DNA from: Jeotgalicoccus saudimassiliensis
GTDB taxonomy: Bacteria; Bacillota; Bacilli; Staphylococcales; Salinicoccaceae
Assembly (NCBI RefSeq): GCF_000756715.1
Contig: NZ_CCSE01000001.1
Span: 1 to 64,000, forward strand
Direction of reading: 5' to 3'
DNA length: 64,000 nucleotides
The notes beneath the pieces are model-generated. The model did not search any database and was not told the origin of the DNA. It was given only the letters and a program-made list of their open reading frames with translations. The translations under genes were made by a program, and so were the position numbers. Below are positions 7,461-56,876 of the stretch, piece by piece. Every line of letters begins with the position of its first letter. Positions within the stretch are counted from its first letter, which is position 1.

Positions 7461-7545
7461 CGATATTGGGATTTGACTGACAATGTGAGTCGGACACTGT
7501 CACACAACGGGATTTGACTGACAATGTGAGTCGGACACAGTCACT
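7461..7545. repeat. Intergenic repeat array A: two 41-bp units
   Basis: Two copies of a 41-bp unit containing GACTGACAATGTGAGTCGG and CGGACACWGTCAC, starting 41 bp apart (CGGACAC at 7491 and 7532). The unit is an imperfect palindrome (ACTGTCA... with ...TGACAATGT). It is the same type as the larger array E at 43889-44166. It occupies the gap between the ywbE terminator and the glmS promoter. No coding capacity is visible. Confidence 0.75.
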
Positions 7546-7591
7546 CAACCAGTAGATCCCCAAACTTTTTCCATTAAAAGGTAAAAAAATC

Positions 7592-14950: not shown

Positions 14951-15005
14951 CGAAACACTCCTTGTTATTATTTACCTTTTATATACCCTGGTTAAGCGCG
15001 ATTCA

Positions 15006-15345
15006 TCCGCAATGAACGCTCTTCATTCCCGGGTAAGTATGTTTCCTCCGCAATGAGCGCTCCTCATTCCCGGGTAAGTACGTTTCCTCCGCAATGAGCG
15101 CTCCTTATTCCCGGGTAAGTACGTTTCCTCCGCAATGAGCGCTCCTCATTCCCGGTTAAATGCGTTTCCTCCGCAATGAGCGCTCCTCATTCCCGGGTAA
15201 GTACGTTTCCTCCGCAATGAGCGCTCCTCATTCCCGGGTAAGTACGTTTCCTCCGCAATGAGCGCTTCTCATTCCCGGTTAAATGCGTTTCCTCCGCAAT
15301 GAGCGCTTCTCATTCCCGGGTAAGTACGTTTCCTCCGCAACAAGC
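15006..15345. repeat. Intergenic repeat array B: eight 41-bp palindromic units plus a partial unit
   Basis: CCGC marks each unit at 15007, 15048, 15089, 15130, 15171, 15212, 15253, 15294 and 15335, an unbroken 41-bp period. Each unit centres on an inverted repeat, CAATGAGCGCTCCTCATTC (AATGAG with CTCATT), followed by CCCGGGTAAGTACGTTTCCT. A degenerate partial unit lies at about 14986-15005, and the ninth unit decays into the 3' end of the MerR gene. The palindrome core ATGARCGYT-N-YTCAT is shared with arrays D and F. No open frame or known repeat family fits. Confidence 0.93.
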
Positions 15346-18418: not shown

Positions 18419-19393
18419 ATGAAAGAAAACTTTTGGCGTGAATTACCGCGTCCATTTTTTGTTTTGGCGCCGATGGAAGACGTAACAGACGTCGTATTCC
18501 GTCATGTTGTCAGTGAAGCGGGCAGACCCGACGTGTTCTTCACTGAGTTTACGAATACAGAAAGCTTCTGCCACCCTGAAGGGGTGCACAGTGTACGCGG
18601 GCGTTTAACGTTTACGGAAGATGAGCAGCCGATTGTTGCCCATATTTGGGGAGACAAACCGGAGCATTTCCGTGAGATGAGTATCGGCGTGGCCGAAATG
18701 GGCTTTAAAGGCATAGACCTGAACATGGGATGCCCGGTACCGAACGTTGCAGCAAAAGGTAAAGGTGCAGGACTGATTCAGCGTCCGGAAACTGCAGCTG
18801 AAATTATTCAGGCGGCTAAAGCGGGCGGCCTGCCGGTGAGTGTGAAAACGCGTCTCGGCTATACTGAAGTTGATGAGTGGAGAGACTGGCTGACACACGT
18901 ACTGGAACAGAATATTGCGAACCTGTCAATTCACCTTCGTACGCGTCGTGAAATGAGTAAAGTGGACGCGCACTGGGAATTAATCGGAGAAATTAAACAG
19001 CTTCGCGATGAGATTGCACCGGATACATTATTAACGATAAACGGCGATATTCCGGACAGAAAAACAGGACTGGAGCTTGTTGAGAAGTACGGCGTCGACG
19101 GCGTGATGATCGGCCGCGGTATTTTCCACAACCCGTTTGCATTTGAAAAAGAACCGAGAGAACATACAAGTGAAGAGCTGCTGGGTCTCTTGAGACTGCA
19201 CCTTGATTTGTTCGACAAATATTCAAAAGAAGAATCGCGTCTGTTCAAACCGCTGCGCAGATTCTTTAAAATTTACGTTCGCGGCATCAGAGGCGCAGGT
19301 GAACTGAGACACCAGCTGATGAGCACGAACTCTACAGATGAAGTCCGGGCACTGCTTGATGAATTTGAAGCGCAGATGCAGCCGACAGAATAA
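18419..19393 (+). CDS. dus: tRNA-dihydrouridine synthase
   Basis: FMN- and NADPH-dependent reduction of uridine to dihydrouridine in tRNA D-loops. The 324-residue protein has the TIM-barrel start [10 protein letters not shown] (16-24), the catalytic Cys105 in [10 protein letters not shown], the loop [20 protein letters not shown], and the phosphate-binding [15 protein letters not shown]. Which uridine positions are modified cannot be told from sequence. Its ribosome site is weak (AAGAAGG, about 12 nt upstream). It is monocistronic with a terminator behind. Confidence 0.94.
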
Positions 19394-19395
19394 CA

Positions 19396-19434
19396 AAAAT
19401 CCCTTTTGATTAATTAATCAAAAGGGATTTTTGC
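19396..19434 (+). terminator. Terminator of dus
   Basis: AAAAATCCCTTTTGATTA pairs with TAATCAAAAGGGATTTTT, an almost perfect long stem. Confidence 0.9.
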
Positions 19435-20462: not shown

Positions 20463-21422
20463 ATGGCAACAATTTTAGGACACCACCATATTTCAATGCT
20501 GACGAAAAATGCGCAGGAAAATAATACATTTTATAATAAACTGCTCGGCATGCGCAGAGTTAAAGTGACGGTAAACCAGGATGATCCGTCAATGTATCAT
20601 TTATTTTATGGTGATAATAAAGGGCGCCCGGGAACAGAACTGTCGTTTTTTGAGATGCCGATGGCGGCGAACACCAGACGCGGAACGAATGCTATTACAC
20701 GGATAGGATTGTTCGTCAGAGGTGAGAGCAGTTTATCCTATTGGCAGAAGCGGTTTGATGAGTACAGCGTGGAGTACAGTGATGTAACAAACTACGGCGG
20801 CAGAAAATCGCTGCTTTTTGAAGATGGCGACGGACTGAGACTTGCACTGCAGGTGGTGGATGATGAAGCGGTCAGCAGATTCGAAAGCTGGGACGGCTCA
20901 GATGTGCCGGAAGAATATCAGATTATGAGCATGGGGACTGTGGAGATGACCGTCCGCAGAATTGAGAAGATGGAAAGAACGCTGACGACACTGTTCGATT
21001 ACGTGAAAGTGTCGGGCGATGAGAATAAGCGATTGTACCGACCTTCGGGGAGTGACGGGCACAGCGAAATCCTAGTTAAATTTAAAGACGGCGACCGCGA
21101 ACGGCCGGGACGCGGGAGCGTGCATCACCTTGCGATTAATGTAGAGAATGAAGAAACACTTCAGTACTGGGACGAGAAGGTGACGGAAAGAGGATTCCGT
21201 TCAACAGGCGTAGTCGACAGACACTTCTTTAAAAGTTTATACTTCCGGGAATCCAACGGCATCATGTTTGAAATTGCTACGAATGGTCCGGGGCTGGTTG
21301 ATACGACACCTGGCATCGAAGCAGGAGAAAAATTAGACCTGCCTCCGTTTATGGAAGCAGACAGAGCCGAGATTGAAGCAAAACTCAGCCCGCTTGATAT
21401 GCTGGGTGATAATAATAAGTGA
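20463..21422 (+). CDS. Ring-cleaving dioxygenase, VOC superfamily (MhqO/MhqA type)
   Basis: A 319-residue extradiol-type dioxygenase built of two glyoxalase/VOC modules (about 5-130 and 150-280). Candidate metal ligands are the first-module GHHHIS (8-9), SVHHLAI in the second, and the Glu of MFEIAT. Relatives MhqO and MhqA protect against quinones and hydroquinones by opening the ring, and are induced by quinone stress. ACGGAGG precedes ATG 20463. It follows the DMT transporter and is followed by repeat array C. The biological substrate here is inference from the family. Confidence 0.85.
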   Translation: MATILGHHHISMLTKNAQENNTFYNKLLGMRRVKVTVNQDDPSMYHLFYGDNKGRPGTELSFFEMPMAANTRRGTNAITRIGLFVRGESSLSYWQKRFDEYSVEYSDVTNYGGRKSLLFEDGDGLRLALQVVDDEAVSRFESWDGSDVPEEYQIMSMGTVEMTVRRIEKMERTLTTLFDYVKVSGDENKRLYRPSGSDGHSEILVKFKDGDRERPGRGSVHHLAINVENEETLQYWDEKVTERGFRSTGVVDRHFFKSLYFRESNGIMFEIATNGPGLVDTTPGIEAGEKLDLPPFMEADRAEIEAKLSPLDMLGDNNK

Positions 21423-21516
21423 ATATAGTGAAGCTTGAGCATGCCCCTCGGTGGAGGACCCTGATTTTTTGTGTTTCAGAGTAGCTGACAAGCTAAATCG
21501 AGCGAATTTTTCTGAT

Positions 21517-21812
21517 CTGTCTCATTTATGGAGTGATAATGTGACAGATGTTGTAATTTAAGCTGATCTGTCTCATTTATGGAGTGATAATGAGACAGAT
21601 GCTGTAATTTGAACTGACCTGTCTCATTTATGGAGTGATAATGTGACAGATGCTGTAATTTAAGCTGATCTGTCTCATTTATGGAGTGATAATGTGACAG
21701 ATGCTGTAATTTAAGCTGATCTGTCTCATTTATGGAGTGATAATGTGACAGATGTTGTAATTTAAGCTGATCTGTCTCATTTATGGAGTGATAATGTGAC
21801 AGGTGTTAGGAT
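21517..21812. repeat. Intergenic repeat array C: six 51-bp palindromic units
   Basis: CTGTCTCATTTATGGAGTGA starts at 21517, 21568, 21619, 21670, 21721 and 21772, an exact 51-bp period. Each unit is a long hairpin: CTGTCTCATTTAT with ATAATGTGACAG around GGAGTG. The second unit restores a perfect stem (ATAATGAGACAG). Linkers read ATGCTGTAATTTAAGCTGAT with few changes. It fills the gap between the dioxygenase gene and the truncated nuclease gene. Confidence 0.93.
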
Positions 21813-21852
21813 CAGTGACAATCTGCCCAAGGTTATAATTAAAATTTTATTC

Positions 21853-21875
21853 TTTGGTGAATACTATTCACCAAA
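21853..21875. repeat. Perfect 23-bp palindrome before the nuclease frame
   Basis: TTTGGTGAATA and TATTCACCAAA flank a single C. The 11-bp perfect arms end 3 bp before the ATG at 21879, where a ribosome site should be. It could be an operator, an mRNA hairpin, or a scar. Confidence 0.8.
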
Positions 21876-21878
21876 AAT

Positions 21879-22859
21879 ATGGATAACAATTATAACTACA
21901 AAGTGATTAACCGAGTGGGACTTGGCAAACCAATAGGTACACCTGACATGGTTATATATGAAACAGAAAAACAGGTGCCGAAGATTATCATCATTGAAAA
22001 TAAATTGGGCACAGGTGAAGGGATTCAGCAGACACTCCGCTATGAATCGGAACTGGCCCAGCAAAGAATTTTAGGAAAACTGAATCTTGAAGCGGCTGAG
22101 TTTCATTTTATCTTTTTAACACTTGATACGACGGTGCTGCCCGGCAGTTCGAAATTTAAGAGTGTCCATTACAGTTCGTTTCTAAATGAAGGCTCAAGTG
22201 TGAATAACGCTGCCTTGAATCGGCTGCTTGAAGATTTTAAAGAGAAGCTCAATGAATTCTACATACCTGTCAGTGATCCTGTGAAAGCTCTGACGGAAGG
22301 AATTCCCATGGATACAGTGCAGCAGAAGATATGCTGGCAGAATATTTTAATGGAGAAATTTAAAGATGAGACAGAACTTAATATCAGCTGGGGAGAAGCC
22401 GGCGGTGCAGGGCGCAATAACTTTATCTTTTTAATTTCAAAGCCGAACTGGAAGTCCGACGAGTCATTTGAAGAAACCGGGCTCGACAATACACTTTATA
22501 TTCATGTGGATACATACATCAACTTGCTTTCCAAGAATGGGAATACTGTCAAAGATATCGGCATTCGTTACGAAACGAATCCATACAAACCGCATAATCA
22601 GATTAAAGACCTTCCAGGATACGATAAATTTATCGAGAACAAGAATAACTTCGCTGCAGTCTTAAACAGAAAACTGCAGCAGGTCATTCCGGACGCGACA
22701 CAGAAGAGAACTTCACTCTTAACCGCGGCAGTACCTGTTAATCAAAACAGTCTCGAAGAGAGCGTTGATGATTATTACGAGAAGGTAAAGCTAATCGAAA
22801 CGGTTATAGATGAAACAATATCGGAAATTAAAAAGAACACTTATTGCATTAAGCATTAA
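21879..22859 (+). pseudogene. PD-(D/E)XK nuclease family gene, probably 5'-truncated
   Basis: The 326-residue frame resembles the PDDEXK_4 superfamily from the middle onward. The catalytic core is PDMVIYETE followed by KIIIIENKLGTGEGIQQTLRYE (Asp near 23, Glu-x-Lys near 40-42). It begins almost at the core, whereas relatives carry roughly another 80 or more residues first. No ribosome binding site precedes ATG 21879; the space holds a perfect palindrome, then repeat array C. An in-frame stop occurs at 21858. The rest of the frame (320 codons) is intact and ends in a hairpin overlapping its last codons. It is best read as a remnant that lost its 5' end; an intact protein with an unusual start is the alternative. 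Confidence 0.6.
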
Positions 22860-22867
22860 GTGTTCTT
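22833..22867. terminator. Hairpin at the end of the nuclease frame
   Basis: AAGAACACTTA pairs with TAAGTGTTCTT. The stem encodes the last residues of the nuclease frame and stands between convergent genes. There is no T run, so termination is uncertain. Confidence 0.5.
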
Positions 22868-22872
22868 CGTTA

Positions 22873-23574
22873 TTAGTTTACAGTATTGGCTTTAAATATT
22901 TTTCTGTCGCCGCGTTCAAGTGGTGCATTTCTCATCATGAAATAAGATGCTGCCAGCAGTACTAATGAACCGAGCGCAAGCAGATGAAGAAACAGCAGAT
23001 ATTCATTGATAATAAATTCAAACAGCGGTGTTAAATTTATAAAGAAGTATGCTGATACTGAGCCGAGTATAATTATTGCCGCTAAAATCAGTGTGCGTAG
23101 TGCACCGAGATTGAAGTTAATAACTTGAGCGAACATTCCTATTCCGAATAGGATAAACAGCCACAGAAAATCTACCCAGAAATACATTGCAGGATTTGCA
23201 TCATTGAGTATGTCTGCCATGTGAAATACATACCCATCTTGAAATGTTACTTCACCGATATAATGCAAAGCGGTTAAAACAATAGTTCCTGCGGTAATGT
23301 ACAGAAAAGCCGCGATAAACGATGACAGCATAAATTGCTTGCGTGTTCCGCCGAATGACAGTATTAATTTATAGCTCTTAAAAAATATAAACGCATATGT
23401 CAGAAACACAATGTAGAACGGTCCGAATATTAATCCGAGCATTTCATTTCCATCAAGCTGAGTGCTGAGAAAAATATAAAGTGCGAATAGCGCGATTGTA
23501 ATTCCGGTATTAATATAAAATGTCAGTTTCATTTCTTTAAAGACAACACTAAAAGGTCCTTTAAGCGTGTTCAT
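22873..23574 (-). CDS. ABC-type transporter permease-like membrane protein (YtrA operon 1)
   Basis: A 233-residue integral membrane protein with six predicted segments. It is third in a GntR-ATPase-permease operon, overlapping the ATPase gene by 14 bp, so it is presumably the membrane partner of that ATPase. No family motif is decisive. The first segment is NTGITIALFALYIFL and the last ends FMMRNAPLERGDRK. By context it is a YtrA-type exporter component, related in layout to systems responding to wall-active compounds; the substrate is not known. Confidence 0.75.
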   Translation of the reverse strand: MNTLKGPFSVVFKEMKLTFYINTGITIALFALYIFLSTQLDGNEMLGLIFGPFYIVFLTYAFIFFKSYKLILSFGGTRKQFMLSSFIAAFLYITAGTIVLTALHYIGEVTFQDGYVFHMADILNDANPAMYFWVDFLWLFILFGIGMFAQVINFNLGALRTLILAAIIILGSVSAYFFINLTPLFEFIINEYLLFLHLLALGSLVLLAASYFMMRNAPLERGDRKIFKANTVN

Positions 23575-24442
23575 TTAATTCAGCCTCCTTTGTAGTTAAA
23601 TTAACAAGGTAATCCTGGAATGGTGCTTTTTCTATCATGACGCCTGCTTGTTCAGCCTCGCGTTTTAAGTCATCTGTCAGCGGCGTATCCAGCATGATAT
23701 TCAGCTGTTTACCGAGTTTGCGTTCCTCAAGCACCCGCTTATTGCCAACTACGGCGCGTACTGCTTCTGCTGTCCCGCTAATATGAACTCCGTTATTTTT
23801 CAAAACATCAGTTTCTTCATAGTGCACCAGTGTATTGTTATCGATAATTGCAATCTTTTCACATAATGGTTCTACTTCTTCAATGTGATGGGACGACAGT
23901 AAAATCATACGCGGGTGTTCATCGTAGGAATCGAGCAGCACATCATAAAACTGCTTTCTCATATGTGCATCGAGACCATTTGATGGTTCATCAAAAATTG
24001 TCAGCGGTGCTTTACTCGCAAGACCGATAGCAATCGTAATCATCGTCTTCATACCTTTTGAGAAGGTACGTATTTTTTTCTTCCTTGGCAGCTGAAAAAT
24101 ATCTATCAGTTTATCAGCCAGCTCCTGATCCCAATTTTCATTAAAGTCACGTCCGAACTTCAGAGCATCGTTTATATCCCACATATCGGAATAGGGATGA
24201 TCCTCCTGCATAAATGCAACGTGATTCATTGCATCACTATTGTTATATGGCACAATACCGTCTACTTCGACAGTGCCGTCGTTCGGTTGTTCCATACCGG
24301 ATAAAATTTTCATTAGAGTTGTTTTCCCGGAACCATTACGTCCCCACAATCCGATAATCACCGGTTCAGTTTCTGTTAAATTAACATCTTTTAAGATATT
24401 CTTTTTGTCATAGGCAAAAGATAAATTATTTACTTTAATCAT
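23561..24442 (-). CDS. ABC transporter ATP-binding protein (YtrA operon 1)
   Basis: A 293-residue ATPase. Walker A GRNGSGKT is at 34-41, the signature FSKGM at 127-131 (an FSKG rather than LSGG form, common in YtrB/BcrA-type ATPases) and Walker B with FDEPSNGLD at 150-158. The H-loop is in SSHHIEE. The C-terminal 80 residues are a small extra domain. It overlaps the regulator gene by 8 bp upstream and the permease by 14 bp downstream, implying one transcript. A paralogous operon lies at 49.9-53.2 kb. Confidence 0.9.
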   Translation of the reverse strand: MIKVNNLSFAYDKKNILKDVNLTETEPVIIGLWGRNGSGKTTLMKILSGMEQPNDGTVEVDGIVPYNNSDAMNHVAFMQEDHPYSDMWDINDALKFGRDFNENWDQELADKLIDIFQLPRKKKIRTFSKGMKTMITIAIGLASKAPLTIFDEPSNGLDAHMRKQFYDVLLDSYDEHPRMILLSSHHIEEVEPLCEKIAIIDNNTLVHYEETDVLKNNGVHISGTAEAVRAVVGNKRVLEERKLGKQLNIMLDTPLTDDLKREAEQAGVMIEKAPFQDYLVNLTTKEAELNEHA

Positions 24443-29230: not shown

Positions 29231-29264
29231 TATTTTGGGAGGGTGGGGGATGGGCGGTGAGTTT

Positions 29265-29618
29265 GGCGTTCTATGAAGGCTGCTCATAGAGCTTCTGATA
29301 GTTTTGGCGTTCTATGAAGGCTGTTCATAGAGCTTCTGGTGGTTTTGGCGTTCTATGAACGCCGCTCATAGAGCTTCTGGTGGTTTTGGCGTTCTATGAA
29401 GGCTGTTCATAGAGCTTCTGATGGTTTTGGCGTTCTATGAACGTTGCTCATAGAGCTTCTGATGGTTTTGGCGTTCTATGAACGTTGCTCATAGAGCTTC
29501 TGATGGTTTTGGCGTTCTATGAACGTTGCTCATAGAGCTTCTGATGGTTTTGGCGTTCTATGAAGGCTGCTCATAGAGCTTCGACCGCTCCCGGCGTTCT
29601 ATGAACGCCGCTCATAGA
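29265..29618. repeat. Intergenic repeat array D: nine 41-bp palindromic units
   Basis: GGCGTTCTATGA begins units at 29265, 29306, 29347, 29388, 29429, 29470, 29511, 29552 and 29593, an exact 41-bp period. The core palindrome is CTATGA-N7-TCATAG, for example CTATGAACGTTGCTCATAG, and a second, overlapping one is GGCGTT-CTATG-AACGCC in some units. The core matches array F in base pattern and period. Linkers read AGCTTCTGATGGTTTT. Units differ mainly within the loop (AACGCCGC, AACGTTGC, AAGGCTGT). Confidence 0.94.
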
Positions 29619-43888: not shown

Positions 43889-44166
43889 ACTGTCCGATAA
43901 ATTGACTTATCGGACGATGTGAAACGGACACTGTCCGATAAAATCACTTATCGGACGATGTGAAACCGACACTGTCAGACAAAACCATTTATCGGACGAT
44001 ATGAAACCGACACTGTCAGACAAAACCATTTATCTGACAATGTGAAATCGACACTGTCAGACAAAACTATTTATCTGACAATGTGAAATCGACACTGTCA
44101 GACAAAACTACTTATCTGACAATGTGAAACGGACACTGTCAGACAAAACTATTTATCTGACAATGT
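43889..44166. repeat. Intergenic repeat array E: seven 41-bp palindromic units
   Basis: ACTGTC begins units at 43889, 43930, 43971, 44012, 44053, 44094 and 44135, an exact 41-bp period. Early units have TGTCCGATAA with TTATCGGACGA; later ones drift to TGTCAGACAAA with TTTATCTGACA, and the arms stay paired. ACGATGTGAAA or ACAATGTGAAA links units. Array A near 7.5 kb has the same type. It lies between the SDR gene and the terminator shared with argD. Confidence 0.92.
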
Positions 44167-56487: not shown

Positions 56488-56876
56488 CTATGAGCGCTGT
56501 TCATAGAACTTCTGAGGCGCTGGGAATCCTATGAGCGCTGTTCATAGAACTTCTGAGGCGCTGGGATTCCTATGAGCGCTGTTCATAGAACTTCTAAGGC
56601 GCTGGGAATCCTATGAGCGCTGTTCATAGAACTTCTAAGGCGCTGGGATTCCTATGAGCGCTGTTCATAGAACTTCTAAGGCGCTGGGAATCCTATGAGC
56701 GCTGTTCATAGAACTTCTAAGGCGCTGGGATTCCTATGAGCGCTCTTCATAGAACTTCTGAGGCGCTGGAACTCTATGAGCGCTGTTCATAGAACTTCTG
56801 AGGCGCTGGGATTCCTATGAGCGCTGTTCATAGAACTTCTGAGGCGCTGGGAATCCGATGAACCCTCCTCATAGAA
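56488..56876. repeat. Intergenic repeat array F: nine full 41-bp units plus a degenerate tenth
   Basis: CTATGAGCGCTGTTCATAG marks units at 56488, 56529, 56570, 56611, 56652, 56693, 56734, 56774 and 56815. The spacing is 41 bp except for one 40-bp step; a decayed unit (CGATGAACCCTCCTCATAG) is at 56856. Palindrome arms are CTATGA/TCATAG. The linker ends alternate between GGGAAT and GGGATT in successive units 2-7. The core is shared with arrays B and D. Confidence 0.94.

Follow-up and report, generated by a model that had tools for sequence, protein, structure and literature searches.

The intergenic repeats and VNTRs of staphylococci include STAR and SIRU, and the REP/BIME arrays of enterobacteria consist of intergenic, tandem palindromic units that lie near gene ends at many loci of one genome. 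Hairpins near the ends of deletions are a known pattern as well. In this context, we analysed a locus of Jeotgalicoccus saudimassiliensis in which a tandem array with inverted arms and a perfect palindrome precede a nuclease frame (Table 1). The locus lies within the first 64,000 nucleotides of contig NZ_CCSE01000001.1 (assembly GCF_000756715.1), a stretch referred to here as the window. A sequence-only reading had described the array, the palindrome and, directly after it, the frame, and all three are present; the array also ends close to the palindrome as described, the measured gap being 50 bp and not the ~40 bp given there. Most likely, this is an ordinary pseudogene that adjoins an array from an interesting class of repeats.

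Table 1. Features of the locus (coordinates in the window)
Feature	Position	Strand	Remarks
Upstream neighbour, glyoxalase/dioxygenase-family gene	20463..21422	+	PF00903 E 5.2e-12; orthologues and gene order
Island without match to J. coquinae	21442..21878 (437 bp)	.	Flanking tract 98-100% identical
51-bp array, units with inverted arms, 5.7 copies	21512..21802	.	95% matches
Perfect 23-bp palindrome, 11-bp arms around one base (21853-21863 and 21865-21875)	21853..21875	.	Folding z -4.32
17-nt block, 16/17 identical to leader of intact J. coquinae gene	21864..21880	+	Contains palindrome right arm
Deletion junction, 163 bp of J. coquinae allele absent, 2-bp AT microhomology	21878..21881	+	
5'-truncated PDDEXK_4-type nuclease frame, 326 codons, likely pseudogene	21879..22859	+	ATG = former internal Met42
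Two ABC-transporter-type genes, converging on nuclease frame	22873-24442	-	

With good confidence we read the frame at 21879 as the remnant of an accessory, stand-alone nuclease gene of the PDDEXK_4 type that has been truncated and is likely a pseudogene. The frame was found in three of 40 genomes, its own included; the other two are those of J. coquinae DSM 22419 and J. nanhaiensis W307, so that three of the nine genomes of the genus carry it. Both relatives keep a longer gene in the same place and between the same flanking genes, which starts 41 codons earlier and has a ribosome site: the leader GTAAAGAGGGTAACAGC precedes the ATG in both, with GAGG as the match to the Shine-Dalgarno core, whereas the longest such match within 20 nt before the ATG of the window frame is AAA. 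This ATG stands 3 bp past the palindrome, with an in-frame TGA seven codons upstream (21858), and corresponds to an internal methionine of the J. coquinae protein (367 residues) that is Ile in J. nanhaiensis. The truncation, the lack of a ribosome site and the absence of the expected N-terminal part, all asserted from the sequence alone, are thus borne out. The longer homologue that the same reading had proposed to look for exists in two congeneric species, and the opposite outcome, a longer form in no relative, did not occur. More distantly, among 398 sampled genomes of the class (own included), relatives at E 1e-10 or less are present in two others, G337 and G072. The former aligns from residue 1 of the intact protein and the latter over residues 3-168, and both retain the N-terminal RED motif (FYREDV, LREDS) that the window frame has lost with its 41 codons.

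The domain assignment agrees with this picture. Like the intact genes of the two relatives, which belong to PF14281 (PDDEXK_4), the window copy is the same gene with the same neighbours and the PD and ExK residues; unlike them, it falls below the family cut-off, scoring 20.3 bits against 24.0 for J. coquinae and 25.0 for J. nanhaiensis at a gathering threshold of 22.3. The intact proteins cover positions 2-133 of the profile and the window frame only 79-133. The residues P63, D64, E81 and K83 (J. coquinae numbering; P22, D23, E40 and K42 in the window frame), which we take to be the PD...ExK active-site motif of PDDEXK_4, are invariant in all five aligned rows, the window among them. When the intact proteins were scanned with PADLOC, weak local matches to the candidate defence family PDC-S26 appeared (best E 6.8e-5 and 4.1e-5), each spanning roughly a quarter of the profile; a defence role is putative. 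A PDB profile search found no matching sequence at E 1 or less and a PHROGs search none below E 0.1, and no viral relatives of the nuclease were confirmed. An AlphaFold2 model, computed from only three alignment rows, reached a mean pLDDT of 45.1, which is too low for fold comparison.

The deletion that separates the window from J. coquinae has removed the ribosome site, the start codon, the 41 codons and an AT-rich stretch, leaving the old internal methionine at the head of the frame. The AT-rich stretch is also present in J. nanhaiensis and may hold a promoter; a promoter scan found no forward promoter-like site in it. As one genome of the species is covered, the deletion may also be a peculiarity of the assembly or the strain. 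The reading frame of the remnant nevertheless stays open for 326 codons, with 98% identity to J. coquinae, and both this and the kept PD/ExK residues would be explained by a recent exchange with that lineage. In a comparison of the window (0-60 kb) with J. coquinae by 1-kb pieces, identity is 71-94% over most of the length and the piece at 52-53 kb is unmatched. From ~19.6 to 28.1 kb, however, it rises to 98-100%, roughly 99% overall, falling to 91-92% only at 25.25-25.75 kb and in the island described below. The pattern suggests a recent 8.5-kb exchange between the two lineages by homologous recombination.

Within the exchanged tract, the array stretch of the island is ~59% identical to J. 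coquinae. Set against ~1% change in the flanks, this difference is hardly the product of point mutation. We infer that the island was either kept through the exchange or substituted later, although fast turnover of the array could mimic such a difference. The nuclease remnant carries 12 differences, and these are concentrated towards its 5' end (p about 0.009 in a cut-free test, preferred to a Fisher test whose 57-nt cut was picked after seeing the data), as if the old allele reached slightly into the gene, which favours retention. The changes are few: J. nanhaiensis gives the direction of four of the five amino-acid replacements, each of which falls on the window's line, as do four of seven silent changes. 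Taken together, the segment carrying the array, palindrome and deletion of the window itself would have found no match during the swap and stayed in place, or been replaced separately, and the outcome would be a truncated nuclease gene joined to a different array.

The sequence-only reading had offered two explanations for the missing 5' part. One, that it was lost when the array expanded or recombined, gains something from the location of array and deletion within a single island that differs from J. coquinae, and a link through one recombination event is possible. Direct removal by expansion or by unequal exchange between units is nonetheless unlikely. The break lies ~76 bp beyond the array, the intervening sequence is non-array and partly common with the J. 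coquinae leader, and no unit sequence occurs at the break. Moreover, arrays of the same period adjoin the intact genes in J. nanhaiensis and J. coquinae and occur in relatives without the gene, so the presence of an array is not enough to account for the loss. A role of the palindrome in the deletion is possible but unproven.

The other explanation, in which the short form would be functional and the palindrome would act as an operator or RNA element controlling an unusual start, did not hold up and seems to us very improbable. The sequence leaves some room for it, as the frame is open with its PD/ExK residues kept and may encode an active short form, and the palindrome folds better than all 200 shuffles. 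Against this stand the missing ribosome-site core and the lost N-terminal motif, and the palindrome is absent from both intact relatives (neither arm is visible in J. nanhaiensis, and the left arm is without a good counterpart in the J. coquinae leader). No second site was found in the genome at up to three mismatches. With neither a conserved position nor a second copy, it is not a conserved operator. A regulon operator was likewise rejected, since among nine genus genomes searched at up to three mismatches the exact site occurs only here, with one three-mismatch site each in G008, G006 and G002. A terminator scan of 21380-21960 gave no terminator-like site, and the palindrome is not an intrinsic terminator with a G+C-containing stem and a T run. 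An origin in the opposite direction, with the short form ancestral and the longer form an extension, is scarcely credible: nothing beyond the open frame speaks for it, whereas the N-terminus and ribosome site agree between two species, homologous N-termini occur in two distant genomes of the class, and PF14281 itself spans the N-terminal part. The truncated remnant is most likely dead, neither translated nor active, rather than specially controlled.

Palindromes of this kind are frequent in the genome. For perfect palindromes with arms of 11 or more and a spacer of 0-1, Markov simulations predict ~0.05 per 64 kb; the window alone has five, and 17 occur in a 464-kb sample of the same genome, made up of the window and 20 evenly spaced 20-kb stretches. 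The number is beyond chance, yet the palindrome at the nuclease frame is not unusual in its own genome but one of many, which again counts against a dedicated control element. The largest of the 17 is a 40-bp perfect palindrome at 19394-19433 (20-bp arms, no spacer), directly behind a gene ending at 19393. With a 101-base query, short matches at E up to 1 appeared in 17 of 24 genomes, the own genome included; the best one outside it (E 8.3e-5) lies in G027, where the adjoining genes look unlike those here. We read the palindrome as private to the lineage of the window and incidental, situated at the edge of the deletion, and not as a conserved control site.

The array itself belongs to the locus rather than to the nuclease gene. 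In every relative compared, the 3' end of the dioxygenase-family gene forms the left border of the locus; this set leaves out G007, with a dioxygenase only 36% identical, and G005, which has none. Behind this gene the same 51-bp period occurs in J. nanhaiensis, J. coquinae and G008, and G001 has about two units, the second degenerate. Both G008 and G001 are without the nuclease, and since arrays stand here whether or not a relative has it, the array does not belong to the gene. In G002 and G006 no such array follows the dioxygenase-family gene, apparently a short gene instead; G002 has a 51-bp array behind ClpC. In J. coquinae, a terminator-like hairpin lies right behind the dioxygenase-family gene. 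A scan of the counterpart place in the window, 21420-21480, found none, and read-through into the array is thus possible there.

Folded as one strand, the array beats all 100 shuffles (z -4.85) and passes an exact-arm shuffle test at p 0.03; for single units the advantage over shuffles is slight (z -1.78), with 9 and 13 of 200 shuffles folding equally well. The arms read G[A/T]GACAG and CTGTCTC in the window versus GAGCAAG and CTTGCTC in the others, with pairing mostly kept. Among 24 of the 30 units (23 distinct), arm positions pair in 95.2% of cells against 89.8% in shuffles, a value reached by none of 500, and in 30-46% for slid controls; the count omits the last units of G008, J. nanhaiensis, J. 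coquinae and the window, one further J. coquinae unit and one duplicate window unit. Two of the five pair-count measures are not exceptional: the three pairs changed on both sides are reached by 71 of 500 shuffles, and 67 of 500 reach the number of further pair types. The compensated pairs trace back to the lineage of the window and thus represent about one event, and pairs 2/33 and 8/27 are broken in 3 and 7 of 23 rows. Arrays with similar arms occur at two J. coquinae loci, one of them behind a gene read as enolase. At one J. coquinae locus (L037, 1356-1703), the arms GAGACAG/CTGTCTC of a 51-bp array are close to those of the window array, as though different loci had arm types in common. 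Copying from elsewhere in the same genome was rejected, as neither the array nor its unit pattern has a second place at up to three mismatches; so was a CRISPR array, as whole 51-bp units repeat and unique spacers are missing. An Rfam 15 cmscan of 21000-23000 returned no match at E up to 1.

Such arrays are numerous in the genome and narrow in their periods. All 24 tandem arrays with a period of 35 or more in the 464-kb sample have periods of 41/42 (17 arrays), 51 (2) or two to four times 41 (5; periods 83, 84, 123, 123 and 165), and two further arrays have periods of 26 and 27. Six lie in the window: besides the 51-bp array, five with a 41-bp period and different arms are found at 7468-7549, 15002-15340, 29262-29618, 43905-44166 and 56488-56876. 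Another 51-bp array is at 212209-212831 of the genome (L083, 12209-12831). By extrapolation, the genome would hold ~110 arrays. Arms vary between arrays and some recur (ACAACGG/CCGTTGT, CTATGA/TCATAG). Nine of 24 array units passed the exact-arm shuffle test (p 0.05 or less), so a hairpin character is not shown for all arrays. Of 23 arrays with both neighbours known, eight lie between converging genes, compared with 29 among 204 intergenic gaps longer than 50 bp, a count blurred by chance frames that span 8 of the 24 arrays in full. Smaller samples showed arrays of 41-42 or 51-52 bp in the genus genomes G002, J. nanhaiensis, J. coquinae and G008 and in G010 of another genus. None were seen in G001, G006 and G007 (31-65 kb each) or in eight genomes of other genera (1.9-40 kb each, around earlier matches or contig starts). 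One of these eight, G029, has a 45-bp array. Other tandem periods in relatives are 39, 57, 69, 30 and 45, and the 39-, 57- and 69-bp arrays look protein-coding. Literature searches on Jeotgalicoccus repeats and on intergenic arrays showed, judging by title, no description of such arrays.

These observations allow a wider, tentative and on balance rather doubtful interpretation, in which the array is one of about a hundred in an undescribed intergenic class with inverted arms and fixed 41- or 51-bp units that keep helical phase and form islands breaking off exchange. The two unit lengths would correspond to about four or five helix turns, one turn apart, and arm sequences may change provided that pairing holds. 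A DNA-binding protein or a copying mechanism would keep the phase, and the non-homology islands would interrupt exchange between species, at times cutting an adjoining gene, as here.

For annotation, the frame is best marked as a likely pseudogene and not as a nuclease with an odd start; otherwise its importance is minor. Against J. coquinae, the locus shows an exchanged chromosome tract with an unmatched repeat array midway along it. It also draws attention to a dense class of arrays with fixed periods in Jeotgalicoccus, whose role is open to testing. This class is more interesting than the truncation, which is ordinary. Among known systems, the STAR and SIRU repeats are likewise intergenic and come from the same bacterial order. 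The REP/BIME arrays share the intergenic tandem palindromic units near gene ends and the many loci per genome. They differ in that the Y1 transposase (PF01797) has no match in the J. saudimassiliensis genome (matches occur in one of nine genus genomes, G006, and in 5 of 14 control rings), and in that the arrays described here have periods fixed at 41 and 51 bp and arms that vary by locus.
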